From positions 1 through 64,000 of the forward strand of contig NZ_MLAT01000005.1 of assembly GCF_002272795.1 (NCBI RefSeq): a stretch of DNA of 64,000 nt, read 5' to 3'. The position numbers and the translations under genes are program-made. The notes under the pieces are model-generated. The model ran no database searches. It saw only the letters and a program-made list of their open reading frames with translations, and was not told the DNA's origin. Position 1 is the first letter of the stretch; every line of letters begins with the position of its first letter. Shown here piece after piece: positions 22,641 to 53,092 of this stretch. The DNA comes from Helicobacter sp. 13S00482-2 (GTDB lineage: Bacteria > Campylobacterota > Campylobacteria > Campylobacterales > Helicobacteraceae).

Positions 22641-22659
22641 CATCAGTGCCCCCTGCTTT

Positions 22660-27678: not shown

Positions 27679-27705
27679 ATCTTCTTATTCCCCGTTTCTT
27701 AATCT
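27541..27705. repeat. 19-bp perfect inverted repeat pair
   Basis: 27541-27559 (AGATTAAGAAACGGGGAAT) is the exact reverse complement of 27687-27705. The left arm is in the coding region of the 27307 gene, and the right arm is just past its stop and overlaps the traG stop codon. A further hairpin, AAGAAGA with TCTTCTT, lies at about 27668-27686 and may end transcription from both sides. Confidence 0.8.
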
Positions 27706-30700: not shown

Positions 30701-31885
30701 AGCTTCATAAAAATTAAATAGAAGAGGAATTTTTTCAAGGAAGGTTGCAGCTGAAGCTATTGCAGAACCACTTGCTAACTCTGCATCGACCTTCAGTTTA
30801 TTACGAGCAATGAGCTCAGCAGTAGCTCCTGTAAGTCCTAAACTATCTTTATAAATTGCTCTATCCACAACTGGTTGCATTGCATTTTTAAGAGTAAGAT
30901 TTAAAAATCCATTTAGACCAGAGACACTATCATGAAGAAATTCTAAGCCCATATCTTTGGAAATATTTTTTACAAACTCATCTTCGCTTTTTGTGATTCC
31001 AGCTTGAAGCAAAATTCTTTTTTCAAAGTTGGGTTTTAAATATCTCCAATGATCCTTTACTTCTCCCCAGGCTTCAACTGAACATTCTTTTCCACTTGTT
31101 GTTTTGAGCCCCTCCATTACGCTTTTATTTGTAAATTTGCTTTTAAAATTATCAGGTGCTATGCTCTCTAGAGTGATTCTACCTTCTCCGATATATAAAT
31201 CTCTAGGAACATTCTTTATTTGTATTGCTCTAAAAACGCAATCACCAATATAATCTCCTAATTTCTGCTCAAACATCAATCCTTGTTCACCCATTCTTTT
31301 AAAATCTACCCATGCTTTTTTATTCATAATGATTTCAAAATTTTTCTGATAACCAATTTGTGAAAATCTCGTGCCATTGATGTCTGTAAAGGTAGAGTCT
31401 ACAAGATTTATTAAAGGAAGTTGCAATGAACTAAAAAGAGAAAAGGGAAGGGCAAGTAAATAGGGAACATTATCAATCTTAGCTTTAGTTGGACCAGTGT
31501 TTGTGCCTGAAAAATAAGATCTTTGATCTTGCAAATAAACACTCACTCTAAATTCAGGAGCAAGACCCAGCACTACAATTATAAGGAGTATTCCATATCG
31601 AGAACTAAAAAAATTTAAAACTCCTGGAGTGCTTATTTCTTCAAGTCCTCTTAATCCTATACGACCATAAAGTACAGCCACTATTCCTCCAATACCAAAA
31701 GCCAAAACCATGAAAGCATAATAGTCTCCACTTCCCATAATCATTGCGACAATGTTTAAAGCTTGTCTATAAAGATCAACATCACCAAAAGTATAAACAG
31801 GAAAATAATCAATGAATAAAGTGCCTTGTGCGGCAAAAGCAAAACTTGAGAAAAATACCAATAAGGTAATAATCTTATTAAACAT
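27704..31885 (-). CDS. traG: TraG, mating-pair stabilisation and pilus assembly protein
   Basis: 1393 residues. The N-terminal TraG domain has hydrophobic segments at about 1-20, 55-75, 93-110, 400-435 and 490-510. A long Ala/Gln/Asn/Gly-rich C-terminal part follows, with a glycine-zipper stretch (GAAVGAVGAGVGAAPGAAVG, about 1010-1070). F TraG acts in pilus assembly and in stabilising mating pairs. In F it follows traH in the operon; here it is alone, on the opposite strand, after the cargo island. It is longer than F TraG (about 940 residues). The last codons are duplicated at 22316-22373. Confidence 0.85.
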   Translation of the reverse strand: MFNKIITLLVFFSSFAFAAQGTLFIDYFPVYTFGDVDLYRQALNIVAMIMGSGDYYAFMVLAFGIGGIVAVLYGRIGLRGLEEISTPGVLNFFSSRYGILLIIVVLGLAPEFRVSVYLQDQRSYFSGTNTGPTKAKIDNVPYLLALPFSLFSSLQLPLINLVDSTFTDINGTRFSQIGYQKNFEIIMNKKAWVDFKRMGEQGLMFEQKLGDYIGDCVFRAIQIKNVPRDLYIGEGRITLESIAPDNFKSKFTNKSVMEGLKTTSGKECSVEAWGEVKDHWRYLKPNFEKRILLQAGITKSEDEFVKNISKDMGLEFLHDSVSGLNGFLNLTLKNAMQPVVDRAIYKDSLGLTGATAELIARNKLKVDAELASGSAIASAATFLEKIPLLFNFYEALALSVFPFFLLSLVIQGGTKALKMYALYFIGLGGVVLERIALAISHDFYTNLTARDVYEKVIGLARNTVVSGGEMVYDQSYYDYIAMQNGLLASSSTMASFLIIGIVISGTLKSFGMIAKAGANAAAAKANMNAEMAKEEQIKSDISQKILETTGLTPAEFEYRQKIMQGIEQNNAAFIENIRFQQAREASAAQIAQGTQQIAASAAIGTDAINNGLGHARTLGTDLATQQINRAEGLQKAGIYDESGNIRNNREGSLYQQGIENQSRISANQTIGIGKEELDTAKMNAIQYGAHAGIKNQIAQGHALRNVYGKDLEGGVGSGGQGYSQVSENNAIDAAISQSAKSKAFNAINSTNGTKQIFNRRESSAEVAYANEMGQGKANAKYLKDNGGIKGVSDIAATNTDMQNIKTAQTVQSAREEFGDVIGGSGKGNYKKTAYQLAAKSHQSMKGEATKIEEDNYYDPESGKSLIELQAETTTSQNLKGFHNSLTNVMAKGKKGMSREKAATEIATAGASEIGEKTFSSVTRFDGKVKAGIVDEDDGSLRSNATITVPANVDKDGNAVGEGTKEINYMEHLRDKNEYHANEEIANVAKFEDTLRANLKKMESQLEKNTKGNFAGDLISNIASDAAVGATTGGMTGAAVGAVGAGVGAAPGAAVGAVVGGVGGAISGTWRSLSEKDEKQANRSAAKVGLNQSLSVQEDLKNGNFAAAGLKGGISSSTIGFGGIVSSVSGTGGNSIQGSQASGVSYSHNESQNYSYGVNASGGSVFAAAAQSMGMGMHNYATMSSSVAAAGAIMGAAGMLMPGGRLGSVLSDVGAIGAESSYAIGVGSAVKLRKNNIKQTNKEKDSSMSKMASSYEDFTSAKGNLENIQRKINSLDGGRKFANLSSESIVEKLYSRQSALNNLKDQNSPKAQGLKREIAALSEYKNLDSAQKRFEFAEAKYNWNKENLSSEHLQEWKKSPLNIDFKNADGIKKGEQMRYEEGGQKAIQDAAEFK

Positions 31886-36680: not shown

Positions 36681-38159
36681 ATGGAGAAGAAAAAAGGTTT
36701 TTGGGAGAAGTTTTTTAAAATAAAGACAGACACTAAACTTGATGAAATTCTTTTAAAAAAAGATGTTGAAAAAAAATTCAAGAGCAGGATAACAAAAAAG
36801 TTCTTCATTTTATTGGGTCTTGGTTTGATTGTTTTTTTCATTCTGGTTATCGTTCAGTCAATTTCTATTATGAAAAATGAGAATATAGAAGTAGCTGAAA
36901 AGAAAAATCGTCAGGTTGTTGAAATAAAAACAGATAATTTCGGAATTTGGCAATCTCAGTTTGAACAAAAATTTAAAGATGAGAAAAAAGAAAGGATCGC
37001 TGATGGCAAGAGAATTGAAAGCAAGATTGATGCAACGAATGATTTTTTAACTAAAGATCTTCCAGAGACTCTTAAAAAAATTGTTTCAGGAATAAATAAT
37101 AAATTTAAAGATTTTGCAAGTGATTTTAAAGAAGAAACCAAAAGTTTAGGTAACAAAATAGACAATTTAGCTAAAGATACAGACAGAAAAATAGACAATT
37201 TAGAGGACAAAATTAACAAGGAAATAGAAATAAAGTTTGTTGATGTTAACAGCAAAATACAAGATTTAAGCAATAAGCCTATTGTTGCACAAGGAATTTT
37301 GCCAGAAGTCTCAAACAAGGACACAGCATTGCCAAAGCCTGTAGATATTCCAAAAGAGGAAGAAGAAGTGATTTATCAGGCTAATATTAAAGTTTCTCAA
37401 CCAGATCCTGTTGAAGAAGAGGTTCAGGAGAGAAAAGAATTAACTTTTAATGCTCCATTAGGCGTTGCTCAAGCAATTTTGTTAAATGGAGGTGATGCTA
37501 GTGTTGCAAATATGGGCAATCAAGAGGATTCTCCTGTAGCTCTTTCTTTGCTAACAAAAATGAGTATTGCTAATGGAGAATATACAAATGTTGAAGATTG
37601 TTTATTGCTAGGAAACGCTATTGGAAATATGAATACAGAAAGAGCGAATATTCGATTAACTAAAATTTCTTGTATTTTTAAAGATAAACAGGGCAATAAA
37701 TATAGGGCTGAAGGTGCTATAAAGGGCTGGATCTATGATGAAACTTCTAACTTAGGGGTAGGCGGAAAACTTATTACTAAAGAAGGAAAAATTATTCGAG
37801 CTACTTTGCCACTTGCAGCCGCTCAAACTGGATTGGATTATATTACAAGGAAGGCTAGTAATGTTAGTTTGGTTGGAGGAGGTTATAGCGACTTAACTGC
37901 CGCTTTAGGTTCAGGTGGAAGTTCTGCAGCTACTCAAACCATCTCCAAAATGACTGATATTTACACAAAATATTTAGATGCAATGACGCCAAGTATTAAT
38001 TTTAAAGGAGGCAGGAAAGTGAGTATTTTATTTCAAGGAGGGGAGAGTATTCCATTAGTCCCTTATGATGACAAAAATAATTTTGATGGAGAAGGTGTTT
38101 TTAACAGCATTCAGGGAGAAAAATACAACTATCAAGGAAATGAGGCAGACTATGATTAG
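36681..38159 (+). CDS. traB: TraB, VirB10-like core scaffold
   Basis: 492 residues. One membrane helix lies at about 37-58 (FFILLGLGLIVFFILVIVQS), then a coiled coil (about 95-210), a Pro/Glu linker and a C-terminal VirB10/TraB beta-barrel domain (about 250-470). The last has TFNAPLGVAQAILLNGG, ANIRLTKISC and AEGAIKGWIYDE, all typical of TraB. It links inner and outer membranes in the core complex. The start ATG 36681 follows AAGGAT; its stop overlaps the next gene. Confidence 0.85.
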   Translation: MEKKKGFWEKFFKIKTDTKLDEILLKKDVEKKFKSRITKKFFILLGLGLIVFFILVIVQSISIMKNENIEVAEKKNRQVVEIKTDNFGIWQSQFEQKFKDEKKERIADGKRIESKIDATNDFLTKDLPETLKKIVSGINNKFKDFASDFKEETKSLGNKIDNLAKDTDRKIDNLEDKINKEIEIKFVDVNSKIQDLSNKPIVAQGILPEVSNKDTALPKPVDIPKEEEEVIYQANIKVSQPDPVEEEVQERKELTFNAPLGVAQAILLNGGDASVANMGNQEDSPVALSLLTKMSIANGEYTNVEDCLLLGNAIGNMNTERANIRLTKISCIFKDKQGNKYRAEGAIKGWIYDETSNLGVGGKLITKEGKIIRATLPLAAAQTGLDYITRKASNVSLVGGGYSDLTAALGSGGSSAATQTISKMTDIYTKYLDAMTPSINFKGGRKVSILFQGGESIPLVPYDDKNNFDGEGVFNSIQGEKYNYQGNEADYD

Positions 38160-38394
38160 GAAAATTATCTACATTATCTCAACGATATTTGTATCTCTAT
38201 TGATAGTGCAGGGTTGCTCTATTGGATCTTCAAGTGGATATTGTGAGTATGGTTGGTTTAAAAATGTTAATTTAAGTTTGAATAAATGTAATTATAGAAA
38301 AACTGGAGTCTGCAAAGATTCTTTAGATATTTTAATGCACAGAGAGGCTACTTTGAAAAAATCTTATGAGGGGCTAAAATGCGAAGAAAATTAG
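38152..38394 (+). CDS. traV: Small TraV-like lipoprotein
   Basis: 80 residues from ATG 38152, overlapping the traB stop. The lipobox is IVQGC (Cys 22). Four more Cys follow in the mature part (YCEYGWF, NKCNY, GVCKD, LKCEE), as in TraV, the VirB7-like lipoprotein of the F core complex. It is much shorter than F TraV (171 residues). An earlier in-frame start inside traB is possible but lacks a signal. Position after traB supports the call. Confidence 0.6.
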   Translation: MIRKIIYIISTIFVSLLIVQGCSIGSSSGYCEYGWFKNVNLSLNKCNYRKTGVCKDSLDILMHREATLKKSYEGLKCEEN

Positions 38395-38939
38395 TTAAAA
38401 TAAATATGTTCATATTTGGATTTTTCTTTCTTCTGACAGGTTGTTCGCAAAAAGAGATTAGAATTACTTTGGATCAGCAAGTCTATTCTCCAAGATATAA
38501 ACCCATTATTGGTAGTGGTAACAATGATGCTAGAACGATTATTGATTACGGAGTAGTTTTAAAGATTTGGGTAACTCCATACAAAGACACTGAAGGAACT
38601 TTAATTGCAGCTCATTATGAATATGTTTGGGTTGATAGACCAGATTTTGTTCCAGGAAGTGCTGTTCCTCAAATCAGTGGAGGTGGTGGCGTGATCACTC
38701 CAACAGGAAAATTGCCTTTTTCTATATCGCCTAATGAAATTGATAGGTCAGATATTAAATCCGATCAGGTAATCAATCGTTTTAATATTCAGAGTTCAAA
38801 AAATACTAATTCAAGGATTTTGCAAAGAGCTAAAAAAGAAGATACCTCGCTTGAGGTGAAGAAAAAACAACCAGTTGACCCGTCTAAAAAACAACTTATT
38901 AAACAACCCGTCAAACAAAATACAAAAGGAAAGAAATGA
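38379..38939 (+). CDS. Second lipoprotein of the core region
   Basis: 186 residues with a lipobox at LLTGC (Cys 22). The mature part has a compact beta-like region (about 25-110, KIWVTPYKDTEGTLIAAHYE, with VWVDRPDFVPG), a Gly-rich loop and a basic Lys/Gln tail likely to be disordered. It overlaps the small TraV-like gene by 16 bases. It may share the TraV job of anchoring the core in the outer membrane, but no motif proves it. Confidence 0.6.
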   Translation: MRRKLVKINMFIFGFFFLLTGCSQKEIRITLDQQVYSPRYKPIIGSGNNDARTIIDYGVVLKIWVTPYKDTEGTLIAAHYEYVWVDRPDFVPGSAVPQISGGGGVITPTGKLPFSISPNEIDRSDIKSDQVINRFNIQSSKNTNSRILQRAKKEDTSLEVKKKQPVDPSKKQLIKQPVKQNTKGKK

Positions 38940-39766
38940 AAAAGAAAATTTTAGCAAGTATTTTAGCAAGTTTGGTTTTAAGCTCTTTGTTAGTAGCTTC
39001 TCCGCAAAATATTTCAAATATATCAGATTTGAAAGAATCCATAGCTATTTTGATAGATAAAATACAGACTTTAGAGAATGAATTTGAAGATCTCAAAAAA
39101 ACTCCTCTTCTTGTTCAAGAGGAGAACAAAACGCAGGATAAAAACTTTGAAAGTAAAGACATTGAAAATAGAGATGATAGACTTATATCTACCTTAGCAG
39201 ATAAGATACAGGCTCTAGAAAATGAAATCAAGAAATTAAAAAAAGTCCCCCTAGTTTCTCAGGATAATAAAGGCATTAAAAAAGAAAAGACTCAAGAGGA
39301 AAAATCTAAAGAAGAAGATGTGGTGAAAAGACTATATGAATTAGAAAAATTAGTGCGATCACTAAGAAATAACCCTTCTAATGATCCACTTTTAGTCCAT
39401 AATGACAAAGAAGAATCTAAGAAAGATTTAGAAAAAAAAGGTGAGCCTTCAAAAGAATCAACTAATGATGCCTTAAACAGACAATTTAAAATTTTTACTG
39501 ATTATGTCAATCAAAGAATCTCTGATTTAGAAAAAAAGACAGTTCAACAAGAAGTTAAAACAACTGAACCTTTAACTTATGTTCAGCAAAGTTCTTTGCC
39601 AACTTGTGATAATCATTGTGTTTCTAAAGCTGATTTTTCAAATTATAAATTTGAATCTATTAAAAAATATAAGAATTTACAAACACAAATTAATGTTTTA
39701 AAAAAGCAAGTTGAGAGTATTCTTTTAGAAATCAGAGAAATCAAAAATTATTATCAGGGTAGTTAG
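38936..39766 (+). CDS. Secreted coiled-coil protein
   Basis: 276 residues with a signal peptide (ILASILASLVLSSLLVASP). The rest is charged helix with three similar segments of the type KIQTLENEFEDLKK and KIQALENEIKKLKK, then a Cys pair (PTCDNHCVS, about 222-228) and a C-terminal coiled coil. It overlaps the lipoprotein by 4 bases and precedes traC by one base. It is a periplasmic spacer or assembly factor by appearance; I recognise no family. Confidence 0.6.
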   Translation: MKKKILASILASLVLSSLLVASPQNISNISDLKESIAILIDKIQTLENEFEDLKKTPLLVQEENKTQDKNFESKDIENRDDRLISTLADKIQALENEIKKLKKVPLVSQDNKGIKKEKTQEEKSKEEDVVKRLYELEKLVRSLRNNPSNDPLLVHNDKEESKKDLEKKGEPSKESTNDALNRQFKIFTDYVNQRISDLEKKTVQQEVKTTEPLTYVQQSSLPTCDNHCVSKADFSNYKFESIKKYKNLQTQINVLKKQVESILLEIREIKNYYQGS

Positions 39767-39767: not shown

Positions 39768-42700
39768 ATGATGTGGAAAATCTATTTAGCCATTATTTTT
39801 GCAGGCGTTGGCTTATTTTTCTATCTGAAAAACCCAAGAAATATAAAAAAAATTTCGCCCATTATAAAGAAGATTTGGAATCTTGTTTTTCCAGATGACT
39901 GGCAAGAAAATCTTGATTCTTTAGAACAGCAAAAAATTAGAGCTCTTAATGAGACAGGTTCTATCTCAAAAATGCTTTTACTGCAGTCTTATCAAAAAAT
40001 TGATAAAGACTTTGGATTCTTTTATCTGATAACTGGAAGAATTGGAGTGGGTCTAGAGTTAAATCTTTCTTCTATGCTTTCTGAAAAAGCAATTAAAGAA
40101 ATTCAAGGTGTTTTAAGCTCTATCAATATAAGAGATGTTGCTATGCAGATAATAACCTATGCGTCTAGCGATATTCAATATTATGTAGAAAATATTGAAA
40201 ATTCTTGTCATTGTGATTCTAAAATAGGCAATATTGAAAATCTTGAATTGATGAGAGATGAGAGAATAAAAAAAACAAAACAGTGGTCTAAAAATAGTAT
40301 GTTATCTGAAGAGTCAGGTGCTGATTTAAGGGCTAGAAACTTTATTAATATGATAATCTTTATTTTTCCACCAGAAGCTAATTTAAGAAAAATAAGGAGT
40401 CTGATGAATACAATCAGAGGAATACTAGAGTCTTTTTCGCCAAGATTGCTTTCCCCCACAATTGTTGCAAAAATTTATGGAGAAATATTAAGAGAAGATT
40501 CAAGTTTGAAGGATTATGATATTCACAAGAAAATGAATGTTCAATTAGCTAAAAATGCTCATGTTAGAATTGATCGAGATGATGGCTTGTTAAAGATTGG
40601 TAGAAAAACATACGCTAAAGTTTTGACAACTGATAAATATCCTTCTTTTACTAGTTCTTATGAAGTTTCAAATGCTTTTTTTGCATTTGAGGGCGAGTAT
40701 CAGATCCCTATTGCCACACCTTTTTTAGCATCTTTAACTGTTCATATTGATAATCCTGTAAAAGCAAAAAGAAAGATTTTAGATAAGGCTAGATGGAATA
40801 TTGGACAAGTTAAAAAAATTGGTGGAGAAGAATTTCTCAAATTTCCATCTTTGTCTAAAGTTATAAAAGAAAGCAAGGAGGTCATTGAATATGTTGAAGA
40901 AGAAGATCAAATGCCATATGATGCAATGTTTTCAATAACTGTTTTTGATACCAATCAGGACAATCTAGAACAATCTATTGGACGATTGAAGACAAAATTC
41001 AAAGCAATAAAAGTTGGTGGCTGGGAGGTCAATGAAGAAAAATTTGGCTTGATCGCTTATCAATCCCTCTTATGGTCTTTACCCTTTCAATTCGATCTTG
41101 AGACAAAAGAGCATTTAAAAAGATTTGATTTAATGTTTAACTCAAATATCACCTCAATTGTTCCTTTAATATCTTCTTTTAAGGGAGTTGGAGCCCCAAT
41201 TCTTAGATTTTTTGCAAGAACAGGGCAAGTTGTGGGAATTGATTTTTGGGCTGGTAGAGAAAACTATAATGTTTGCATCATAGGTCCTTCTGGTTCTGGA
41301 AAATCATTTTTGAGCAACAGTATTCAAGCCTCGCATCTTCAAGCGGGTGTTAAAGTTACAATTTTCGATAAAGGGCGTTCATATCTTCCGCTTTGCCAAG
41401 AGCTTGGCGGAGAATTTATAGACTTTGCTAAAGTAGATGAAAAAGGTAAACCAAATATCAAGTGCCTAAATTTTTTCACAAACATGCAAACTGTTTTAAA
41501 AGATCCTGAAAGTTTTGGTGGTGGAGACAGGATTGTGTTAAGCTATGCTTCTTTTAGAAAAAGCGATCTTTTAAGAGAAGATGGAAAAATTGAGGCCATT
41601 GAGGAAGATTCCTTTCAAGCTCTTGTTCTTATTATCGGGATTATGTGCGGTCAAGATTATTCTTCAGGTATAAAAAATCAAATTGGACATAATGATAATT
41701 CAACTAAGAGCATTATGCAAAATCTTATAGAAGAGGCCTTAATGAGTGCTTTCTATAAAAAAGGCAGAGAAGCGGGAATGAGGGAAGTTGGAGAAGCATT
41801 AAGCGAATTTAAAGATATTGCAATGAAAAAAAATGAAGTAGAAATTGCAAATGAACTCAATAAGCTCATTTTGGCTTTAACAGCTTTTACTTCACCGAGC
41901 GGAAAGTTTTTTAGCTATTTTAATGGAGCTTGTAATATAAACCTTGAAAATGATTTCACTCTTTTAGAGCTTGATGATTTAACCAACAAGGGAAACCTAT
42001 ATCATTTAGTTTTAATGAGTATGCTAGAGCGTTGTGCTTCGGACATGTATTTTGATAGAACGAAGAAGAAAAGTATTGTTGTTGATGAAGCGGCAGATGC
42101 CTTAAGCGATATGACTTATGCTAAATATTTTGCTGACTTTTGTAGAAGAGTAAGAAAATATGGAGGATCAATGATGACAATCACACAAGGTGTTCGAGAT
42201 TATATGGCAAATTCTTTTTCAGAGGCCGTTTGGACAAACTCTTCACATAAGATGCTCTTAAGGCTTAATCCAAATGAAATTGCTAAAGGCTTTGAAAGCG
42301 GAGGGTTATTTTCTGGATACTCTGATTTAACTAGAATACAAATGAGTTCAGTTTCTAATAGAGCACCTGAATATTCTGAATTTTTATACATTAGTGATAA
42401 CGGGTTTTCTGAAGTTCTGATTTTAAAGGCAACTTCTCAAGAGGCTTCAATGTTTACGACTAACCCTTTAGAGCAAAAGCAAAAAAAAGATCTCCAAGAG
42501 CAATATGGATTAACACCTCAACAAGCCACAGGTCTTTTTGGATACCTTAAAGAGGGTATTGATATACAAGAGGGCTTAAAAAATGTTAAAGAAAAGAACA
42601 AAAAAGGAACAACAGAGTTTTGGCTCAATAAGATCAGATCAAGTTTTAATAAAGACCAAATAATTCCATTTGCTCAGAAAGTTTGCGATGAAGAGGGAAA

Positions 42701-43352
42701 CGTTATATACTATGAAACTTTTTTGAGGATTCTTGATGAGGGAGATGTTTATAGCCCTAAGGATTTTTTAGAGACAGCCATTGAGCAGGAACTTCTAGGA
42801 ATGATTTTTAGGAGACATCTAAAAAAGTGTATTAATTTTTTCAAACCTCTTTCTCAAAAATTTTCTATTAATTTTCATATTACAGAAATCAATGATCATC
42901 TTTTGGATTCCTTAGATGAGCTTTTCGAGGACAACGATAAAGGATTGCTTATTTTAGAAATAGAGGCAAAGAATATTAAAAATAAAGATGTTTTCGATTT
43001 TTGCGTCAAGGCAAAAAACAAAGGATTTTTGATTGCTCTAGACAATATAGATTTCAATATTAAATTAGTAGACCTAGAGATTCTTCGACCAAATTTTATA
43101 AAAATTGATGGAGCTCTTGTTTTGAGTGCATATAACAATGAGACCGATAGAAATAAAATTTACATTTTTTCTCAAATCGCTAAAACTTTTAACATGTTAG
43201 AAATTGCTAGTCATATTGAAAATAGAAAATTGCAAGAAATGAGCAAGGGTATTGGAATTAATCTCTATCAAGGTTTTTATTTTCAGGAACCACAAAGTAT
43301 TTTAGATATATTTAATATAAAGGATTCAAAAGATGCTGTTTTGCAGTCTTGA
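39768..43352 (+). CDS. traC: TraC (VirB4-like ATPase) fused to a C-terminal EAL-like domain
   Basis: 1194 residues, about 350 longer than usual TraC. It has an N-terminal membrane helix, the TraC N-domain, Walker A GPSGSGKSF (about 505-513) and Walker B KSIVVDEAAD (about 766). From about residue 975 to 1185 an EAL fold follows: YYETFLR in place of EALLR, SPKDFLETA, LILEIEA, IALDNIDF in place of LDDFG, FIKIDGALV, and IASHIEN in place of AEGVE, then LYQGFYF. Some metal ligands of cyclic-di-GMP phosphodiesterases are changed (second Asp of DD, first Glu of AEGVE), so it may bind without cleaving. TraC powers pilus assembly; the fusion suggests control by cyclic-di-GMP. Confidence 0.85.
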   Translation: MMWKIYLAIIFAGVGLFFYLKNPRNIKKISPIIKKIWNLVFPDDWQENLDSLEQQKIRALNETGSISKMLLLQSYQKIDKDFGFFYLITGRIGVGLELNLSSMLSEKAIKEIQGVLSSINIRDVAMQIITYASSDIQYYVENIENSCHCDSKIGNIENLELMRDERIKKTKQWSKNSMLSEESGADLRARNFINMIIFIFPPEANLRKIRSLMNTIRGILESFSPRLLSPTIVAKIYGEILREDSSLKDYDIHKKMNVQLAKNAHVRIDRDDGLLKIGRKTYAKVLTTDKYPSFTSSYEVSNAFFAFEGEYQIPIATPFLASLTVHIDNPVKAKRKILDKARWNIGQVKKIGGEEFLKFPSLSKVIKESKEVIEYVEEEDQMPYDAMFSITVFDTNQDNLEQSIGRLKTKFKAIKVGGWEVNEEKFGLIAYQSLLWSLPFQFDLETKEHLKRFDLMFNSNITSIVPLISSFKGVGAPILRFFARTGQVVGIDFWAGRENYNVCIIGPSGSGKSFLSNSIQASHLQAGVKVTIFDKGRSYLPLCQELGGEFIDFAKVDEKGKPNIKCLNFFTNMQTVLKDPESFGGGDRIVLSYASFRKSDLLREDGKIEAIEEDSFQALVLIIGIMCGQDYSSGIKNQIGHNDNSTKSIMQNLIEEALMSAFYKKGREAGMREVGEALSEFKDIAMKKNEVEIANELNKLILALTAFTSPSGKFFSYFNGACNINLENDFTLLELDDLTNKGNLYHLVLMSMLERCASDMYFDRTKKKSIVVDEAADALSDMTYAKYFADFCRRVRKYGGSMMTITQGVRDYMANSFSEAVWTNSSHKMLLRLNPNEIAKGFESGGLFSGYSDLTRIQMSSVSNRAPEYSEFLYISDNGFSEVLILKATSQEASMFTTNPLEQKQKKDLQEQYGLTPQQATGLFGYLKEGIDIQEGLKNVKEKNKKGTTEFWLNKIRSSFNKDQIIPFAQKVCDEEGNVIYYETFLRILDEGDVYSPKDFLETAIEQELLGMIFRRHLKKCINFFKPLSQKFSINFHITEINDHLLDSLDELFEDNDKGLLILEIEAKNIKNKDVFDFCVKAKNKGFLIALDNIDFNIKLVDLEILRPNFIKIDGALVLSAYNNETDRNKIYIFSQIAKTFNMLEIASHIENRKLQEMSKGIGINLYQGFYFQEPQSILDIFNIKDSKDAVLQS

Positions 43353-45120
43353 AGAGAAATTATTAAAAGCCCATAACGAGCTTAAAGATTTTGAGAGAAA
43401 AATAAACACTAAAAAGTTGGATATCAAAAAAGAAAGAATCAAAGCTAAAAAAGAAAAACTTGTGCAAAAAAAATATGATATTGAAGAAGAATATATCACA
43501 AGGCATAATAAGGAAGGACTATATGTAGGGATTGGAGTAAATCTGCAGACCTTAAAAAAAGAGCCCTTGCTTTTGCCCTGGAAAAACTTTTACAACCATT
43601 CAGCAATTTTTGGAACGACTCAGGTTGGTAAAACAAAATTCCTATTAAGTTTTGTTCGTCAAAATATACTCAAAGGAGATAATGTTTTGATTATGGATCC
43701 AAAAGCTGGAAAAGAGCATGAAATTTTAAATAAATTATTTGAATTTGTTCATGAAGCTGATAGGCACAAAGATTTTTCATATATCAACCCACTATCTCCA
43801 AAATCAACAGACTATTTTAACCCACTATATGGATTAGGAGATGATGAAATCGCTTCTTTGATTGCAACAATCCTTTACCCTAATCCTCAAGGAGATGGAG
43901 AGTTTTATTCTGGAAATGCTTTTGCTATTTTAAAAGTTGTACTTTATTCCTTGTCTTTTTTGGAAAAGATAGGCGATGAGGATGGAGAGTATCGAAAAAA
44001 AAAGGAAAAAGAGGAATACATTAAATATATCAAACTAATGGAGTTGCGAAATGAGAATTTAAGGTCTTATGATTTTAAAAATGAATTAATGTTTCCAGAT
44101 GTTGCTGAAAAGCTTTTTGCAGAGATGAAGGATTTTGAAATAGAGGAAGAGGGAATTTTTAATAGAAGCTTTTTGACATTTCAGGACTTGCTTTATTACA
44201 CAACAGTTGAAAAATTAAAAATCCTAAAAGAGACGGTTTTTGCAATTCCTGTAGACAAAAAAGATTTTGAGCTAATGAGAATAAAAAAAGAGCTCGTACT
44301 GTTATGGGAAAAAATTGATGAAATTTCACCTGAACACCGAGCAAAAATTTCAGTTTCACTGTCGAATTTTTTGAGTAATATAGGAACAGGAGAGTTGGGA
44401 AAAATATTTTGCACTATTAAAATCAATCCTATTTTATCAAAAATAGCCAATCCCGAAAGAGGCTTAATTTTACTTTTACACCCATTCCCATTAAAGTTTA
44501 AAAAGATCTCTGAATTCGTAAATAAGATTCTCATTAAAGTTTTTGAATCATTATTTGGGATTGTGAGTGTCAGTGGTAGAATGCTTGGCAATAAGAGGCT
44601 TTGGGCACATTTAGATGAGGGGGAAGCTGCTATTTATCCTGGTATTGAGAGTCTTTTAAATAAAGGGGCAGGTTTAGGATTTACAATTAATATTTATACT
44701 CAGTCTTTAGCAGATCTTGAATCAAAAATGGGGACAATCTTAGCAAAAGTTTCTAGAGATTCTTTGAATACTTATTTTGTTTTAAAAATGAATGAAGAAC
44801 ACAGTATTGATAGCATGATCAGAGCTTTTGGAATTATAAATACAACAAACACAAATATAGTTGGTGGTTCTAGAGGAATGGGAATTAATTTTTCTAGATC
44901 TACTGAGAGTATCTTAAACTCTAGTTCTATCATGAACTTACAACCCGCTGAAGGATTTGTGAAAAATATGGGCAAATACTGGAAGGTTAATTTTCCAATT
45001 ATGCCAGATAGGGATTCAAGGTATTTAATAGAACCCGAAACGACTGAAGATGAAAAAATGTTTAGAAGAATGATTGAGCTTGAGAAAGAATTAGAGAAGC
45101 TAGGAGAAGCAGATGTATAA
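43333..45120 (+). CDS. traD: TraD type IV coupling protein
   Basis: 595 residues. A basic coiled-coil N-terminus (about 10-60) has no membrane helices, unlike F TraD. Walker A IFGTTQVGKTKFLL is at about 92-105, followed by NVLIMDPKAGKEHE and, later, LWAHLDEGEAAIYPG (Walker B region, about 420-434) and IYTQSLADLE. It resembles the TraD group paired with MobH relaxases (SXT/TOL type), which supports the HD protein as relaxase. It overlaps traC by 20 bases. The protein delivers the relaxase-DNA complex to the channel. Confidence 0.85.
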   Translation: MLFCSLEEKLLKAHNELKDFERKINTKKLDIKKERIKAKKEKLVQKKYDIEEEYITRHNKEGLYVGIGVNLQTLKKEPLLLPWKNFYNHSAIFGTTQVGKTKFLLSFVRQNILKGDNVLIMDPKAGKEHEILNKLFEFVHEADRHKDFSYINPLSPKSTDYFNPLYGLGDDEIASLIATILYPNPQGDGEFYSGNAFAILKVVLYSLSFLEKIGDEDGEYRKKKEKEEYIKYIKLMELRNENLRSYDFKNELMFPDVAEKLFAEMKDFEIEEEGIFNRSFLTFQDLLYYTTVEKLKILKETVFAIPVDKKDFELMRIKKELVLLWEKIDEISPEHRAKISVSLSNFLSNIGTGELGKIFCTIKINPILSKIANPERGLILLLHPFPLKFKKISEFVNKILIKVFESLFGIVSVSGRMLGNKRLWAHLDEGEAAIYPGIESLLNKGAGLGFTINIYTQSLADLESKMGTILAKVSRDSLNTYFVLKMNEEHSIDSMIRAFGIINTTNTNIVGGSRGMGINFSRSTESILNSSSIMNLQPAEGFVKNMGKYWKVNFPIMPDRDSRYLIEPETTEDEKMFRRMIELEKELEKLGEADV

Positions 45121-46396
45121 AGAAAAGATAATTCGTTTGATTTCTGAATTAGAAACTAAGCTTATCGAGAGAGAAGAATTTATTCGTCTTTCGATTTTAT
45201 GCATCTTTTCTAGACAACATTTATTTTTTATTGGAGCACCAGGTGTTGCCAAAACTTATGCAGTTGAAATTATGTCAAAAATTTTTACTGATTCGGTATT
45301 TTGGCAAAAAACATTAAGTGCCAAAACTGAAGAATCCGATTTTCTTGGGAATAAAAAAGATACACCTAAAGAAGAAACGATTTTAGGAGCAAACTTTTTA
45401 TTCTTTGATGAAATGTTTAAAGCCCCTGATGATACTTTGGTAGCACTACTTTCAGTCTTAAATGAGCGATATTATACTATTGGCGGGAAACCTTATCCAA
45501 TTCCTTTATACACATTATTTTCTGCAAGTAATGAAATCCCCGCAACTGAAAAAATTGAACCTTTTACAGATAGGCTTTTAATTTGGTATCGAGTTGAAGA
45601 GATTTTAAAAAGTGAAAACAGAAATAGATTTTATCGAAATGAATTTGGTGGGAACAAAAACTTCTTGAATACTTTTTCGCTTAAAGATATTGATGAGGTT
45701 TGTCAAAAAGCCGAGAGAGTAAAATTAAATAATGAGATTTTGGAGATCTATGAAAAAATAAGAATCAATCTAAAAACATCTTTTTTGGGTGTGTCCGATA
45801 GAAAAATGGGGCCAAAATATATTCTTCAAGCACTAAAGGTCAGTGCTGTTTTAAATGATAGAGATGCTGTCAATCATTCAGATTTATTATTGATGAGACA
45901 CATGCTTTGGACAGATGATAAAAAACGTAATCGCGTGTTTGAGATTGTGGAAAAAACAATTTTAGGAGACAAAGTAAATATTCAAACCAGAATTGGAGTT
46001 ATCAAGAAAAAATTTGAGGATTTTAACAATGATTTTGATAGATCTAATTTTAAGTTCTTAAATCACCAATTGTTTATTACAAAGAGCGAAGTCTTTAATC
46101 AGTCTATTCAGAATTGCTATGAGTTTGAGAGGTTGTTGACCCAGCTTGAAGAAGAGAGTAAAATTATCGAGGATTTTTATAAAAAAACAATTCAAATACA
46201 AAAAGAGATTGAAGATAATATTTTATGCTGGAAGAATAGACATTTTGCTTTCACTCAAGAAACTTTAGATTTGTTTTATAACTGCTCATCAATGATAAGA
46301 GTTAAGCTAAAGGCTCTAAAGACATTTATTGAGCAAAATAACGATTTGTATTCTTATCAAAAAAATCAATACAAAAAAGGAGTACGACATGTATAA
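45113..46396 (+). CDS. MoxR/RavA-like AAA+ ATPase in the tra operon
   Basis: 427 residues. Walker A is FFIGAPGVAKTYAVE (41-48), Walker B is LFFDEMFKAP (about 96-105), sensor region FSASNEIPATEKIEPFTDRL, and then a winged C-terminal half with long helices. This is the RavA branch of MoxR ATPases, which normally act with a VWA-domain partner (ViaA) as chaperones. No VWA protein is encoded here. It overlaps traD by 8 bases, so it is a true operon member. A chaperone role in pilus or substrate handling is inference. Confidence 0.8.
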   Translation: MYKEKIIRLISELETKLIEREEFIRLSILCIFSRQHLFFIGAPGVAKTYAVEIMSKIFTDSVFWQKTLSAKTEESDFLGNKKDTPKEETILGANFLFFDEMFKAPDDTLVALLSVLNERYYTIGGKPYPIPLYTLFSASNEIPATEKIEPFTDRLLIWYRVEEILKSENRNRFYRNEFGGNKNFLNTFSLKDIDEVCQKAERVKLNNEILEIYEKIRINLKTSFLGVSDRKMGPKYILQALKVSAVLNDRDAVNHSDLLLMRHMLWTDDKKRNRVFEIVEKTILGDKVNIQTRIGVIKKKFEDFNNDFDRSNFKFLNHQLFITKSEVFNQSIQNCYEFERLLTQLEEESKIIEDFYKKTIQIQKEIEDNILCWKNRHFAFTQETLDLFYNCSSMIRVKLKALKTFIEQNNDLYSYQKNQYKKGVRHV

Positions 46397-47528
46397 AAAA
46401 ATAATTGCTATAGGTTTGATGGTGTTTTGCTCTCAATCTCTTTTTGCTCAAAAAGAGGAAAAGATTGGAAGAGGGTGGCTTCAATATGATGATCCTGCTC
46501 AACAAAAAGAACAAAAAGATCTAGGTAAAAATAGTGAAAAGGAGATTTTATTGGCAATTTTGAAAGAACAAAGAAAGCAAACTGAGATTCAAATGCAAAT
46601 TCTTGATATTTTAAAGGTGACTAATGACCTACCAGAGATAATTGAAGTTAATGGGAAAAAATGTCTTTCAAATTCTTCAGTAGATTGTTTTAAAATGCCT
46701 ATCATTAAAGATGCTGCTAGGATTCCTGTAATGAAAAAATGGTTAGAAGAACCTACTATTGAGAATGCTTTAGCTTATTATAAATGGCAAACTAAATACC
46801 TTAATCAAACTTTTGATGTGGGCTATTCATTAAATCTAGCTTCTATTTCTACTCCTCCTGAGATGAGCAATATTCCTAGCTATGCTCAGACAAATGGAAC
46901 CAAGTTAGCAGAAGATCAAAAGAATGAATATATCTTTAATAAGGTTTTAAAGAGTCTATCTAAAAATATGGAGCTAGATATTTTGTTAGGAAAAACTTTT
47001 GGTTATGATATTGATAAGGCGATTAGAATTTTTGACATTTATGATAATTATAAATCCATTGGAGTTAAAGTTAAGTTTGTGTTTGAAAATGAGGATTCTT
47101 TAAATAAGTTTGCTTATGCCAACAAATCAGCTCCAGCTGAAATATATGGAGAAAGATGGGCAAAGATAGATTCTAGGGATAAAATCATTTCTCAAAATAG
47201 TTTTAAAGATAAAGATGTTTCAATTTATGCCACACCAATGTATATTCTACGTTTTAATGATCTAAAAAAGAACATTCATTTTTCGCAAATTTTAGGTGTT
47301 GGAAAAGATGATTTTGAGGTTATTTTTAAATCAAACATAAGGGCTTTGATTCTTTTTAAGGTCATCAAACCAAAAGACATTAATGGAATTAAAACCGAAA
47401 AAATGAATACTGAGACGATGATTAAAGAACTCAATGGTATGAACTTTATCAATGAGCAAGGAAAAAAAGAAAAAGCACAATATTTTAAACAACTTTTGGA
47501 AAAGGAGATAAAAGATGATCAAAAATAA
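46389..47528 (+). CDS. traF: TraF-like periplasmic pilus assembly protein
   Basis: 379 residues from ATG 46389 behind AAAAGGAG. The signal peptide ends near SLFAQ. The mature start GRGWLQYDDP and PTIENALAYYKWQTKYL (about 125-141) match the TraF N-terminal region. The C-terminal half, where a thioredoxin fold is usual, lacks a CxxC. F TraF acts with TraH, TraU, TraW and TrbC in pilus extension, and those genes follow here. It overlaps the ATPase gene by 8 bases. Confidence 0.7.
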   Translation: MYKKIIAIGLMVFCSQSLFAQKEEKIGRGWLQYDDPAQQKEQKDLGKNSEKEILLAILKEQRKQTEIQMQILDILKVTNDLPEIIEVNGKKCLSNSSVDCFKMPIIKDAARIPVMKKWLEEPTIENALAYYKWQTKYLNQTFDVGYSLNLASISTPPEMSNIPSYAQTNGTKLAEDQKNEYIFNKVLKSLSKNMELDILLGKTFGYDIDKAIRIFDIYDNYKSIGVKVKFVFENEDSLNKFAYANKSAPAEIYGERWAKIDSRDKIISQNSFKDKDVSIYATPMYILRFNDLKKNIHFSQILGVGKDDFEVIFKSNIRALILFKVIKPKDINGIKTEKMNTETMIKELNGMNFINEQGKKEKAQYFKQLLEKEIKDDQK

Positions 47529-49275
47529 AAGAACACTATCTTTGATTTTATGTGTAGGGTTGTTAGGAAATCCATTAATGGCAAATGTGTTTGATTCTTT
47601 TGGAAAAGGCTTTACTGACAGGTTGGATATTAATACAAAAAATGATGGAAAGGATCTTGGTTTTAGCAATATCACAGCTCCAGGAGAAATTAGAGATGGT
47701 GGTGAAAGTACTTTCTTTGGTGGGAATATTGAATTTAGATTTGACAATAAAATGAACATGATAAAGCCATGGTTGGATTTTGAAGTTCCTGGCATCAAAG
47801 CTGGTTGTAATGGATTTTCTGTTAATGGTGGTTTTGCTAGTTTGATGGATTTAAACGATATTGCTGAGCAGCTTGGAAATGCATCAGGAGCTATTGTTTG
47901 GGGTTTAGTTGTTGGACTTATTAATTCCATGCCAACTTTAGAACATACATTTTCAAAAATCAAAGAATGGATACAGAATATTCAAGATATGATCAGAAAT
48001 GCTTGTAACTTTACTTCTAAACTAACACAAGATGCATTGAAGGGTTCATCGTTCCCAAAAACTGCACAAAAAGTTTTTGATGAACCAAGCGACCTTATAG
48101 ATAAAAGTGAAGATAAGCTTAAAAAGATTTTTAAGGACAAGATTTCTGGAACAAACACTAGCCCGACAGATGCAGATTCTGAAAAAATAGCAAAGACTTT
48201 TGAAGATGGTCTTAGTGTTTATTATTTTGTTCGAGGTTCAGCTGGAGACTTTTTGTTTGATAAATTTATGCTAGATGAGAAATCCTTTAAGGCTTTAAGT
48301 GATGATGAGAAAAAGAAAAAAAGAGAGATAACTGAACAGGTAATCAAAGATGATGATGATATAAGTTTTAATTATTTATTATTTGTTAATATTTTTGGCG
48401 AAAGTGCTATTTCTCCTAAACTGAACTTCTTTTATAAGAATTACGGCAATGTCATGTCTGATTTGATTGCTGTAGGAAAAATCGATACTAAAGCTAAAGG
48501 ATCAGCTAGAATGGCTTTAAAAGAAAATGCTTTGGAAAAAATAGCTACAGATAATGTTGAAGCCGCAAAAGAAGGAGGATTAAACGGCGGTGTTGATTTA
48601 GGTAAGGTTTTGGAGCCTAAGATGCTTCCTTCTCCAATTCAAAAAGTAAATATCATTAACACTCTGCTTAATGGAAACAGGAAGAAAGAGCTTAGACTCT
48701 ACCCTATTAAAATTTTATATGCTCAAGTGCAAGGAAAAACAGGGGCAATGCATAATCTTTTAGCACCTATTGTTTTTGAAGACAAAATGATAACTACCAA
48801 GTGGACTGGATTGATTGATATGGCTAAAGAAAAAATTAGATGCCTAGTCAAGGGCAATAAAGACAAAACTTGCGGAGAGAATAATAGCCATGTCACCCTG
48901 ATTGTTCCTGGAACGGAAAGAATCGTTGAAACCATTAAAATGCAAGATCAAGTTGAGAGAGAAGCTAAAGCATCAACAAATGGAAATTTTGGAGCTCAAA
49001 CAGAAGATTTAATTCAAGCTTTTGCTCGATACAATGCTTATCTTTATGCTAAATTCTTATTGCAAAATTTAATGGATCAAAAGAGAAAGAACTCTGCAGG
49101 TAATGAAGTTAAAGAAGAAGAAATAAAAGAGTCTGAAATTATTGAAAATACTCTAACGTCATATCTTGAAGAAATCAAAGAACTATCCATAGGAGATTTA
49201 AAAACAATCAAAGAATTTAAAGATTTTTTCAAAGAACTTGATAAAGATCTAAAAGAAGAAAGAGCAAAAAAATGA
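47515..49275 (+). CDS. traH: TraH, pilus assembly protein
   Basis: 586 residues with a signal peptide (SLILCVGLLGNPLMA). The segment PGIKAGCNGFSVNGGFASLM (about 92-111) is the conserved TraH signature, followed by GAIVWGLVVGLINSMPTL and the long helical C-terminus. It overlaps traF by 14 bases. The length is somewhat above F TraH (458). It acts in the periplasm or outer membrane during pilus extension. Confidence 0.85.
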   Translation: MIKNKRTLSLILCVGLLGNPLMANVFDSFGKGFTDRLDINTKNDGKDLGFSNITAPGEIRDGGESTFFGGNIEFRFDNKMNMIKPWLDFEVPGIKAGCNGFSVNGGFASLMDLNDIAEQLGNASGAIVWGLVVGLINSMPTLEHTFSKIKEWIQNIQDMIRNACNFTSKLTQDALKGSSFPKTAQKVFDEPSDLIDKSEDKLKKIFKDKISGTNTSPTDADSEKIAKTFEDGLSVYYFVRGSAGDFLFDKFMLDEKSFKALSDDEKKKKREITEQVIKDDDDISFNYLLFVNIFGESAISPKLNFFYKNYGNVMSDLIAVGKIDTKAKGSARMALKENALEKIATDNVEAAKEGGLNGGVDLGKVLEPKMLPSPIQKVNIINTLLNGNRKKELRLYPIKILYAQVQGKTGAMHNLLAPIVFEDKMITTKWTGLIDMAKEKIRCLVKGNKDKTCGENNSHVTLIVPGTERIVETIKMQDQVEREAKASTNGNFGAQTEDLIQAFARYNAYLYAKFLLQNLMDQKRKNSAGNEVKEEEIKESEIIENTLTSYLEEIKELSIGDLKTIKEFKDFFKELDKDLKEERAKK

Positions 49276-49985
49276 TGAAAACTTTATTTTTTATTTTTTT
49301 AATGGCTTCTTTTGTGGTAGCTGAACATTCTTTGATTCCAAATATTAGGATCGGAGGAGATATTTTAAAAAATCCAAATTTTAAGGAAGATAATTTAGAA
49401 GAAAGTCTTTTGTATTTAGAGAATCATATTGGAGGAGACTCTTTTTTACTGGAAGCCAACCTTTATGAATTAGGTTCTTCTGATGGTAAAATCAAGCCCG
49501 ATTTGAATCGCTCTTTAAAAGCTTATGAAAAGCTATATAAACAAGGAAATCCTATTGCTGCTTTTAAGATAGGCATGTTTGCTTGGGAAATTAAAAAAAA
49601 TCCTAAAGACATAGATATAGATTTAATCAAGATAGTTAAACATATTGATGGGTTAGATCCTGTTGTTTATTTTAAAAAAGGCTCTGAAATGAACTCAAAT
49701 TATCGTTATCGTTCACTCACTCCTCTTTTGAGAAAAACATTAGGTATCTATATCTTTAGTGAGTTAAAGGATTATAAGAAAACTATAGAGATTATGAGTG
49801 ATCCTTCTGTGTCTTCTAGTGCTGGAGCTCAAATCTATCTAGCTTTTGCTTACTATGAGTTAAGAAACGAGAAATTGGCGAATTTTTTTTTAAATAAGGC
49901 TTGTAATAACCTTAAAAAAGGACAAGATATTGCAATGTTCTGTATGGATTCAAAAGCTATTAACAGACAGAACATGGGAGAATAA
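49272..49985 (+). CDS. Secreted Sel1/TPR-like repeat protein
   Basis: 237 residues with a signal peptide (LFFIFLMASFVVAEH). Helical pairs of Sel1 or TPR type follow: RSLKAYEKLYKQGNPIAAFK, then AQIYLAFAYYELRNEKLANF, and a C-terminal Cys pair (ACNNLKKGQDIAMFC). It overlaps traH by 4 bases. Such repeats mediate protein contacts; here probably with periplasmic pilus parts. It is related in type, not closely in sequence, to the gene at 50508. Confidence 0.65.
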   Translation: MMKTLFFIFLMASFVVAEHSLIPNIRIGGDILKNPNFKEDNLEESLLYLENHIGGDSFLLEANLYELGSSDGKIKPDLNRSLKAYEKLYKQGNPIAAFKIGMFAWEIKKNPKDIDIDLIKIVKHIDGLDPVVYFKKGSEMNSNYRYRSLTPLLRKTLGIYIFSELKDYKKTIEIMSDPSVSSSAGAQIYLAFAYYELRNEKLANFFLNKACNNLKKGQDIAMFCMDSKAINRQNMGE

Positions 49986-49987
49986 AA

Positions 49988-50503
49988 ATGAAGTTATTTA
50001 AAACTGTTTTATTAGGACTATTACCCATAGGATTGTTTGCTCAAAATTGCGAAGTTGGTTATAAAGTTCTTTATACGATTGCAAGTGTTGAGCGGCATCC
50101 TAAAAGGGATATTGGCTATCCTTATTTAATTAGTTTTAATAAAACTTCCCAGATGATTTATTTATCAAAAATCAAGCCAAAACCAAAATATAAAATTCTT
50201 GATAGTAGAACTATTGATTGCATGGATCTAAGAAATTGTGTTTTTATTTATAGAGAGTTAAAAAAAAGAGCTATAAAGAACCTTGATTTAGGGGCATTCC
50301 AAATCAATCCTATATATCATAAATATAAAGATATGGATTATTTTGCTCTTAAAAACTCTCTTTTAATCGCTTGTTCGATTGTAACTAATCTGAAAAATAA
50401 ATATGGATGGTCTTGGAAATCTTTAGCTAAATATCATTCTCATAAAAAAGAAAATAATCTCAAATATCAATATTATTTAAAACGTTATGCACTAGGAAAA
50501 TAA
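49988..50503 (+). CDS. Lytic transglycosylase-like protein (VirB1-type)
   Basis: 171 residues with a signal peptide (VLLGLLPIGLFAQ). The catalytic Glu is in IASVERHPKR (about residue 35), and LDLGAFQINPIYH (about 100-112) and KYHSHK (about 152) follow, as in SLT-fold muramidases of secretion systems. It would open peptidoglycan for the transfer channel. It lies 2 bases after the Sel1-like gene. The CDMLRNC-type Cys pair (CMDLRNC) may add a disulfide. Confidence 0.75.
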   Translation: MKLFKTVLLGLLPIGLFAQNCEVGYKVLYTIASVERHPKRDIGYPYLISFNKTSQMIYLSKIKPKPKYKILDSRTIDCMDLRNCVFIYRELKKRAIKNLDLGAFQINPIYHKYKDMDYFALKNSLLIACSIVTNLKNKYGWSWKSLAKYHSHKKENNLKYQYYLKRYALGK

Positions 50504-50507
50504 AACT

Positions 50508-51320
50508 ATGATTAAGAATTGCTACTCACAATATAACCTCTTGCTAAAAGTAACAAGAGGCCTCCAAAACTATTGCCAAATCTTGATTATTAATTCAAGA
50601 AGTGATACAATGACGTTTAGAATTGTTAGTAGCAATTCAAGGAACTTCATAAGAAACACCTTTTTAAGGTTGTTCAAATTTATCCCTCGAGGTTGTTCTC
50701 CTCAAGGGATAGCAACCTCAAATATTATTTTATCAAAATTTTTCTTTCTTTTTTTATTTGTTCTTATAAGCATCAATGCTTATGCGGAAGATTTTAAAAA
50801 CAAATACTCTTCAAATATTCCACTTGAACAAGAATACATAAAATCTTTTGCAAAAGATATAGACGTAAAAATTACCCCCACTCCCTTGTATGAAAAAGCG
50901 ATGGAACTATATTATCTAGAAAAAAATTATAAAAATAATGCGTTGATAAGAACTCAAAAAAATGAGAAAATAAAACTCAAAATACCAGATTTTCCAAAAA
51001 TACTAGATGTTTTTTTAAAAAGTTTTAGAGAAGAGCACAATCTAGCTAGTATTTATATGGCTGCAAGAATGCTTGAATTTATTGGTTTAGATGATTTTAA
51101 AAATCAGGCTCTTTATTTTGACTTGATGAATACCTTAGCACAGAACAATAACTGTAAAGGGTTAGAGAGAGTGGGAGTGTATTATTATTATGGAAAGGGC
51201 GGGGTGATTGAAGATAAAAAAGCTGCGATGAGTCTTCTTAAAAAGGCTTCAAAAGTTTGTTCAAATACTATTTATCGCTACTCCATTGATTATGTATTAA
51301 GTAAAGGAGATGAAAAATGA
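50508..51320 (+). CDS. Sel1-like secreted protein with an odd N-terminal extension
   Basis: 270 residues as written from ATG 50508. The signal-like helix (FFFLFLFVLISINAYAED) only begins at residue 79. The first 78 codons are basic and come from DNA full of hairpins: CCTCTTG/CAAGAGG at 50537-50560, GAATTG/CAATTC near 50618 and CCCTCGAGG/CCTCAAGGG at 50684-50708. The mature part ends in Sel1-type repeats (GVYYYYGKGGVIEDKKAAMS). No convincing internal start with a ribosome binding site is seen, so the true start is uncertain. The hairpin DNA may be a small inserted element or a transcription attenuator. Confidence 0.55.
   Translation: MIKNCYSQYNLLLKVTRGLQNYCQILIINSRSDTMTFRIVSSNSRNFIRNTFLRLFKFIPRGCSPQGIATSNIILSKFFFLFLFVLISINAYAEDFKNKYSSNIPLEQEYIKSFAKDIDVKITPTPLYEKAMELYYLEKNYKNNALIRTQKNEKIKLKIPDFPKILDVFLKSFREEHNLASIYMAARMLEFIGLDDFKNQALYFDLMNTLAQNNNCKGLERVGVYYYYGKGGVIEDKKAAMSLLKKASKVCSNTIYRYSIDYVLSKGDEK
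50537..50708. other. Cluster of hairpins inside the tra operon
   Basis: Three perfect or near-perfect inverted repeats lie within 172 bases: 50537-50543 with 50554-50560 (7 bp), about 50618-50623 with 50631-50636 (6 bp), and 50684-50692 with 50700-50708 (8 of 9 bp). They interrupt the start of the Sel1-like gene and may form RNA structures or mark an inserted element. Confidence 0.55.
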
Positions 51321-51376
51321 TCGATTTGAAACAAACAGATCAAAACGATGATTATATATTTTTATATTGGGAGTAG
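51317..51376 (+). other. 19-codon linker ORF
   Basis: ATG 51317 overlaps the previous stop (ATGA), and the frame ends at TAG 51374-51376, three bases before traW. It may serve to couple translation of the Sel1-like gene and traW; it could also be chance. Confidence 0.25.
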
Positions 51377-51379
51377 AAA

Positions 51380-51970
51380 ATGATTAAAAAGATCTTATTA
51401 ATACTGCTTTTTATTACAAATGCATTTGCTTATTATGATTTTGGAGTACTTGGAAATACTTATATTATAGAGGAACCTGATGCACTTGAAGAGATGAAAA
51501 AGGCTTATGAGCAGACAGATAAGAAAGCACTTAAAAAAGAATTGATTGATGAATACAAGAAGAACCTAGTAGGCAATATCCATCTTCCTTATTGTAAAAA
51601 AAACTCTACAAGAAAGATTGATCTTTTTAACAAGAGGGCTCCTTATGATATTGATATAGAAGAAGTGGATATTCATATTAAAGCAGGTACTCCTTTGAGT
51701 GATTTTTATCAAAATGTTCATTTAAAATATGCTTTAATGAATGCAACTTCCCCCGATGAATTTTCTTGGCTCAAATCTCAAAAAGTGCAAAATGTCATTA
51801 TCACTGAAGGCATTTTAGATGAATTAAAAAAATATTCTCAAAAATTCATACTAAATACAACCTTGAAAGATGCTTTTGAGTTTAAATGCACTCCCACTAT
51901 TTTTGAAATAAAAAAAGGGGTTTTAAATATCTATGAATATGAAATCAAAAGAAAAGAGGAAGCACAATGA
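51380..51970 (+). CDS. traW: TraW, periplasmic pilus assembly protein
   Basis: 196 residues with a signal peptide (ILLILLFITNAFA). The mature start YDFGVLGNTYIIEEPDALEEM matches the TraW N-terminal signature (D-G-G-Y-I-x-E-D-L). IHLPYCKKN follows, and the C-terminal half fits the TraW fold. TraW works with TraU and TrbC, which are encoded next. It overlaps traU by 4 bases. Confidence 0.85.
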   Translation: MIKKILLILLFITNAFAYYDFGVLGNTYIIEEPDALEEMKKAYEQTDKKALKKELIDEYKKNLVGNIHLPYCKKNSTRKIDLFNKRAPYDIDIEEVDIHIKAGTPLSDFYQNVHLKYALMNATSPDEFSWLKSQKVQNVIITEGILDELKKYSQKFILNTTLKDAFEFKCTPTIFEIKKGVLNIYEYEIKRKEEAQ

Positions 51971-53082: not shown

Positions 53083-53092
53083 AGGAGAGAGC

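Follow-up and report, generated by a model that had tools for sequence, protein, structure and literature searches.

Control of conjugation is known mostly at the level of transcription. The protein presented here has its closest described counterparts in the F-type TraC ATPase, a member of the VirB4 family, and, for its C-terminal tail, in several EAL proteins. FimX and LapD contain inactive EAL domains that bind c-di-GMP (PMC5301497 among the sources), and for YkuI, c-di-GMP is listed as bound together with metal 1 alone (PMC5301497). YdiV, an EAL adaptor that does not bind the nucleotide, has lost eight of ten conserved residues (PMC3510510). A pilus motor carrying its own receptor is also described: the MshE ATPase senses c-di-GMP via a domain on its own chain (PMC5013675).

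The window analysed here, a stretch of 64,000 nucleotides from Helicobacter sp. 13S00482-2, contains a traC gene with such a tail (traC-EAL; 39768–43352, plus strand), a single open frame of 1194 codons encoding a protein of 1194 residues. Its N-terminal part matches TraC_F_IV over residues 79–442 (Pfam, E = 8e-18, 65 bits against a cut-off of 28.1), followed by a P-loop_TraG domain of the TraG/VirB4 type, the best stretch of which spans residues 682–915 (E = 1e-29, 103.7 bits against a cut-off of 25.8). As read from the translation, the Walker A and B motifs are intact (GPSGSGKS and IVVDEA); the Walker A region, IIGPSGSGKSFL, covers residues 504–515 (41277–41312, plus strand), and G506, G509, G511, K512 and S513 within it are invariant across 10 homologues. 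With domains above curated cut-offs, Walker motifs and tra neighbours, the product is an F-type TraC ATPase. It resembles canonical F-type TraC in its N-terminal and ATPase domains, its Walker motifs and its TraB, TraV, TraD, TraH, TraU and TrbC surroundings, but differs in having about 275 extra residues that include an EAL domain and, in Helicobacter, a hydrophobic N-terminal helix. This helix (residues about 5–21; 39780–39830, plus strand) has a Kyte–Doolittle mean of 1.99 over 17 residues and is modelled by AlphaFold as a helix at residues 2–21. It is found in all six Helicobacter TraC-EAL proteins, is absent from most others, and could be a membrane anchor. A further helix (residues about 933–961; 42564–42650, plus strand; helix 17–45 of the AlphaFold tail model) links the ATPase to the EAL domain. 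The full-length AlphaFold model has a pTM of 0.40, which is too weak for interdomain geometry.

The tail is a full-length member of the EAL domain family by both profile and predicted fold. PF00563 matches residues 954–1175 (42627–43292, plus strand) over profile positions 2–236 of 236 (E = 9.7e-25, 87.7 bits against a cut-off of 31.3), and the genome contains just one other EAL domain. A separate EAL profile, built for this analysis, gives the tail 139 bits, whereas the top score of 2000 shuffles is 11.7. An AlphaFold model of the tail, generated with nine homologues, has a mean pLDDT of 87.4. When compared with the PDB using Foldseek, the best 50 matches listed were all EAL-containing structures, among them RbdA, MucR, FimX, RocR, LapD and YkuI (E values down to 9e-17, TM scores of about 0.7–0.8); the solved protein nearest in sequence is YkuI. 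The EAL fusion proposed in the sequence-only reading is thus confirmed by profile and fold, and the motifs on which it relied (YETFLR at residues 982–987, SPKDFLETA, EIEA, ALDNIDF, FIKIDG, IASHIE and YQGFYF) all lie in one frame of the open reading frame. The interval proposed there, 42660–43352, does hold the domain, but the domain starts slightly further upstream, at about 42627.

Twelve TraC-EAL fusions were aligned with RbdA, YkuI and intact EAL proteins to compare catalytic and ligand residues (all coordinates on the plus strand). The metal-1 ligands are retained: E983 in the YETFLR motif (42711–42728) is invariant in all 12 proteins, N1035 (42870–42872; ligand role taken from PA3825, PMC5301497) is also invariant, E1064 (42957–42959) is kept in 11 of 12 with Asp in the remaining one, and D1092 is kept in 11 of 12. 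K1112 of the K1112-I-D1114 motif (43101–43109), E1151, the last Glu of the AEG(V)E-like loop, and the QG pair of the binding pocket (Q1168–G1169; 43269–43274) are invariant as well. The second Asp of DDFG, a metal-2 ligand, is missing in all 12 fusions, being N1093 in the window protein (D1092–N1093; 43041–43046) and N, H or G in the others. The AEG(V)E loop has likewise lost its first Glu, the catalytic one, in all 12, with S1148 in its place here (S1148 to E1151; 43209–43220). In RocR numbering, N1093 and S1148 correspond to D296 and E352. Established work on RocR shows that an active EAL enzyme needs both the metal-2 Asp and the AEG(V)E Glu. The two-metal site, made up of E, N, E, DD and the AEG(V)E Glu, is thus incomplete. 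In PA3825, the residue set kept in TraC-EAL forms metal site M1, whereas the lost residues correspond to the M2 ligands Asp161 and Glu217 (PA3825 numbering), and the metal-2 Asp and the AEG(V)E Glu are required in active EAL enzymes (PMC5301497). The two metal-ligand substitutions noted from sequence are therefore not peculiar to this protein but the rule across the fusion clade. Finally, the ligand Arg of the ExLxR motif, which in other EAL receptors makes contact with the ligand, is lost in 6 of the 12 fusions; the window protein retains it as R987.

The six invariant columns of the domain (E983, N1035, K1112, E1151, Q1168 and G1169) are all EAL signature positions (hypergeometric p = 1.5e-8). 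Because these pocket columns persist although tails are as little as 19% identical, the alignment indicates selection for the pocket without catalysis. TraC-EAL shares its fold and substrate pocket with YkuI, FimX and LapD, for whose c-di-GMP binding no turnover is known, and differs from them in being joined to a conjugation ATPase. Both TraC-EAL and YkuI have DN instead of DD, together with the E, N, E, D residues of M1; YkuI, however, keeps the AEG(V)E Glu that TraC-EAL has lost. LapD, unlike TraC-EAL, has lost the first Glu (KVL). YdiV is catalytically dead, as the TraC tail appears to be, but TraC-EAL keeps most of the ten residues that YdiV has largely lost, and thus does not show a YdiV-type loss of the pocket (compared with PMC3510510).

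The fusion is present on this element, as had been proposed, but is not peculiar to it: it is conserved across Campylobacterales. The 12 full-length TraC-EAL proteins include that of the window and that of Helicobacter sp. 12S02634-8 (G108; 54% identity to the window protein, same genus). The others are from Helicobacter sp. MIT 00-7814, H. labetoulli, H. magdeburgensis, H. anseris, Sulfurimonas indica, Sulfurimonas sp. KA11, the Malaciobacter mytili plasmid pAMYT, two further Campylobacterales genomes (G122 and G279) and one metagenome-assembled genome labelled Gracilibacteria. This last label may be a binning error, since its TraC-EAL is sister to the S. indica protein. Scanning the genome collection with the tail alone gave no match, full-length alignment being required to find relatives, and a scan of viral contigs yielded no TraC-EAL relative. 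A search with the ATPase part only, which does not favour tailed proteins, agreed with this distribution: strong matches have frames of 1142–1207 codons and weak, distant ones frames of 828–955 codons, except for one match cut by a contig end. In a tree of TraC without the tail, the 12 fusions lie on one side of a branch with 100/100 support and adjoin tail-less TraC of Aquificota. The 25 other TraC proteins in this tree all lack an EAL match; of these, 24 are C-terminally complete and one (L097) is cut by the contig end, so the expectation that canonical TraC ends after the ATPase holds for all 24 complete proteins outside the clade. A single origin followed by long retention of the fusion is the simplest reading of this tree. 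The tail evolves faster than the TraC core. In the closest pair, the few changes in the tail (dN 0.006, dS 0.045) are those of purifying selection; dN/dS is saturated beyond this pair. A search of open-licence papers found no described TraC-EAL fusion, in line with the sequence-only reading.

The gene lies within an F-type mating-pair formation cluster, and its closest named relatives belong to Helicobacter. Upstream, on the plus strand, are genes for TrbI/TraB (start 36681), TraV (start 38379) and a coiled-coil protein, together spanning 36681–39766. The 3′ end of traC-EAL overlaps the gene for a TraD-type coupling protein (43333–45120, plus strand; TrwB_AAD_bind and TraG-D_C), which is followed by a MoxR-type AAA+ ATPase gene (45113–46396, plus strand; Pfam and phmmer) and by genes of the TraH, TraU and TrbC types (47515–53656, plus strand; starts at 47515, 51967 and 53060; Pfam). 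The MoxR-type ATPase follows traD in the window and at eight other TraC-EAL loci (phmmer E values from 2.9e-132 to 1.2e-37); near several tail-less TraC genes, and in Sulfurimonas KA11, no such gene was seen. TraD, too, keeps its synteny in most fusion elements and was not observed beside several of the tail-less TraC genes. F-type systems are not known to have VirB11, so the MoxR-type ATPase could be a substitute motor or remodelling factor. TraE-like (14347) and TraK-like (15266) genes lie apart from the main tra cluster, as does a TraG_N gene on the opposite, minus strand (27704–31885). Between the parts of the transfer region, the interval 17014–27111 holds restriction-modification genes (N6 methylase/HSDR-like; methylase plus specificity domain) and an AAA_21 and RloB-like pair, and is likely a block of defence cargo. 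After the TrbC gene, 53672–62304 contains two very large open reading frames of 1900 and 983 residues with no significant Pfam match, which may encode TraN-like or surface proteins. The window's genome yielded no MOBH relaxase (PF07514).

The c-di-GMP enzymes of the hosts bear on what the tail may bind. The host of the window encodes one intact GGDEF protein (YGGDEF), one degenerate GGDEF protein and one other EAL protein, the catalytic residues of which are intact. An intact GGDEF protein is also present in Helicobacter sp. 12S02634-8 and in H. anseris (G097). Among the 10 hosts surveyed, three Helicobacter carriers of the fusion (G089, G058 and G059) lack both an intact GGDEF protein and a second EAL protein; their sole GGDEF protein is a degenerate paralogue (LGDSEF, LGGGRF or LGSGRF). 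The TraC-EAL pocket residues are kept in these three hosts despite the lack of an intact cyclase. Among Helicobacter, the ligand Arg is replaced by Cys or Tyr in exactly these three, and the position is Arg or Lys in the three Helicobacter hosts with a cyclase. H. labetoulli, for instance, has no intact cyclase and has lost the Arg. S. indica encodes dozens of GGDEF proteins, yet has lost the Arg. The idea that loss of the Arg goes cleanly with absence of a cyclase was therefore rejected: the three hosts make up a single clade, and S. indica does not follow the pattern. Given the three hosts without an intact cyclase and the loss of the Arg, including in S. indica, sensing of c-di-GMP by every member is not supported; sensing by the window's protein is plausible. 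A conserved degenerate GGDEF protein (GDG[VI]F and similar; L064, L122–L124, L129 and L130) is the sole GGDEF protein found in some Helicobacter genomes; its gene is close to a comM-like gene in the window's genome, H. labetoulli and H. magdeburgensis.

A substrate pocket that is kept while catalytic residues are lost is the pattern of a non-catalytic EAL receptor. We consider it about an even chance (roughly 0.5) that the tail acts as a receptor on the conjugation motor that binds a nucleotide without hydrolysing it; in the window's host, c-di-GMP would be the likeliest ligand. The sensor to which the substitutions had been taken to point is borne out as a receptor-like pattern, whereas a sensing role is plausible only. 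The main rival is a docking domain: a YdiV-like protein–protein adaptor that would join TraC to a partner (TraD, the MoxR ATPase or a host factor) and have no nucleotide role. The three hosts without an intact cyclase, the absence of the ligand Arg from six of the 12 homologues and the synteny of the MoxR ATPase and TraD with most fusions, but not with several tail-less TraC genes, fit such an adaptor. An adaptor would, however, be expected to conserve its surface and not its pocket, and the invariant residues of the EAL domain are those of the pocket only, whereas YdiV has lost most of its conserved set (PMC3510510); we regard this explanation as unlikely. The retention of the pocket in hosts without an intact cyclase could also mean that the tail binds another ligand in all hosts (another cyclic dinucleotide, GTP, or metal and phosphate), c-di-GMP being only ancestral. 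The intact EAL phosphodiesterase genes in two of the elements speak against this idea, which seems improbable.

Two other explanations fare poorly. That the tail is an active c-di-GMP phosphodiesterase attached to TraC might be argued from its complete EAL fold and the retention of E, N, E, D, K and Q; because two catalytic metal ligands are lost in all 12 homologues, activity is very unlikely, as had been proposed from the substitutions, and we rejected this reading. A neutral passenger or an annotation accident (read-through, frameshift fusion or assembly join) would agree with a tail that evolves faster than the core, but the same join recurs in 12 proteins, which come from eight named taxa as well as other genomes and all fall in one clade, with invariant pocket residues and a synonymous excess in the closest pair. 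The homologue survey suggested by the sequence-only reading thus refutes a passenger or accident, frameshift and assembly fusions included, and we give this explanation almost no credence.

On the receptor reading, an EAL domain was acquired once at the C-terminus of TraC, in a Campylobacterota lineage of F-type systems, and the M1 site and substrate pocket were retained while second-metal and catalytic residues were lost. The data establish the fusion, its EAL fold, its single origin, the selectively kept pocket and the lost catalytic residues; that the tail binds a ligand, which ligand this would be and how it would couple to ATPase activity are inferred. Because of this combination, the domain most likely binds a nucleotide without hydrolysing it, in the window protein probably c-di-GMP or its product pGpG; loss of the E352- and E268-equivalents might weaken the predicted binding. 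Binding would alter the linker helix or EAL–EAL contacts within the ATPase oligomer, and would thereby permit or block pilus assembly. If binding holds, TraC-EAL would parallel MshE/PilB-type ATPases with an MshEN domain in uniting a pilus motor and a c-di-GMP receptor domain on one chain. Those ATPases, however, belong to another family (type II secretion/type IV pilus), and their unrelated receptor domain is N-terminal, whereas that of TraC-EAL is C-terminal.

EAL genes also occur within other transfer clusters. In two TraC-EAL clusters, a gene with all EAL catalytic residues is present: a GGDEF-EAL gene in Malaciobacter pAMYT (28717–29955 of L062) and an EAL gene in S. indica (L092, 14560–15264). 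In Gammaproteobacteria, MPF_F plasmids from Vibrio, Pseudomonas and many enterobacteria carry a stand-alone EAL gene between the TrbC-type gene and traU (including L112:5986-6690 and L110:8992-9663); it shares with TraC-EAL its place within an F-type cluster, but is a separate gene with intact catalytic residues. TraC has no tail in the Vibrio and Pseudomonas MPF_F-type plasmids with this gene. The Vibrio EAL protein is matched by 1659 plasmid records; in a sample of 40 rows taken from these at even spacing, 20 overlap or lie directly beside a gene for TrbC or TraW. No paper on the role of the TrbC/TraU EAL gene was found among open-licence papers. These cases suggest that EAL proteins and F-type transfer clusters are more widely linked, in a way that appears to be unstudied and that extends to plasmids of enterobacteria, Vibrio and Pseudomonas.

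We tentatively suggest, at somewhat less than even odds, that a conjugative type IV secretion ATPase is a cyclic-dinucleotide receptor, in which a one-metal EAL domain that does not hydrolyse its ligand would gate pilus assembly and DNA transfer, some elements encoding their own phosphodiesterase to tune the signal. TraC-EAL lends itself to simple tests: a single domain and few pocket residues are involved, and its natural variants differ in whether the ligand Arg is present and whether the host has a cyclase. If the tail is a receptor on the motor, a second messenger could switch the transfer machine directly, and the spread of genes would be tied to the motile–sessile decision.
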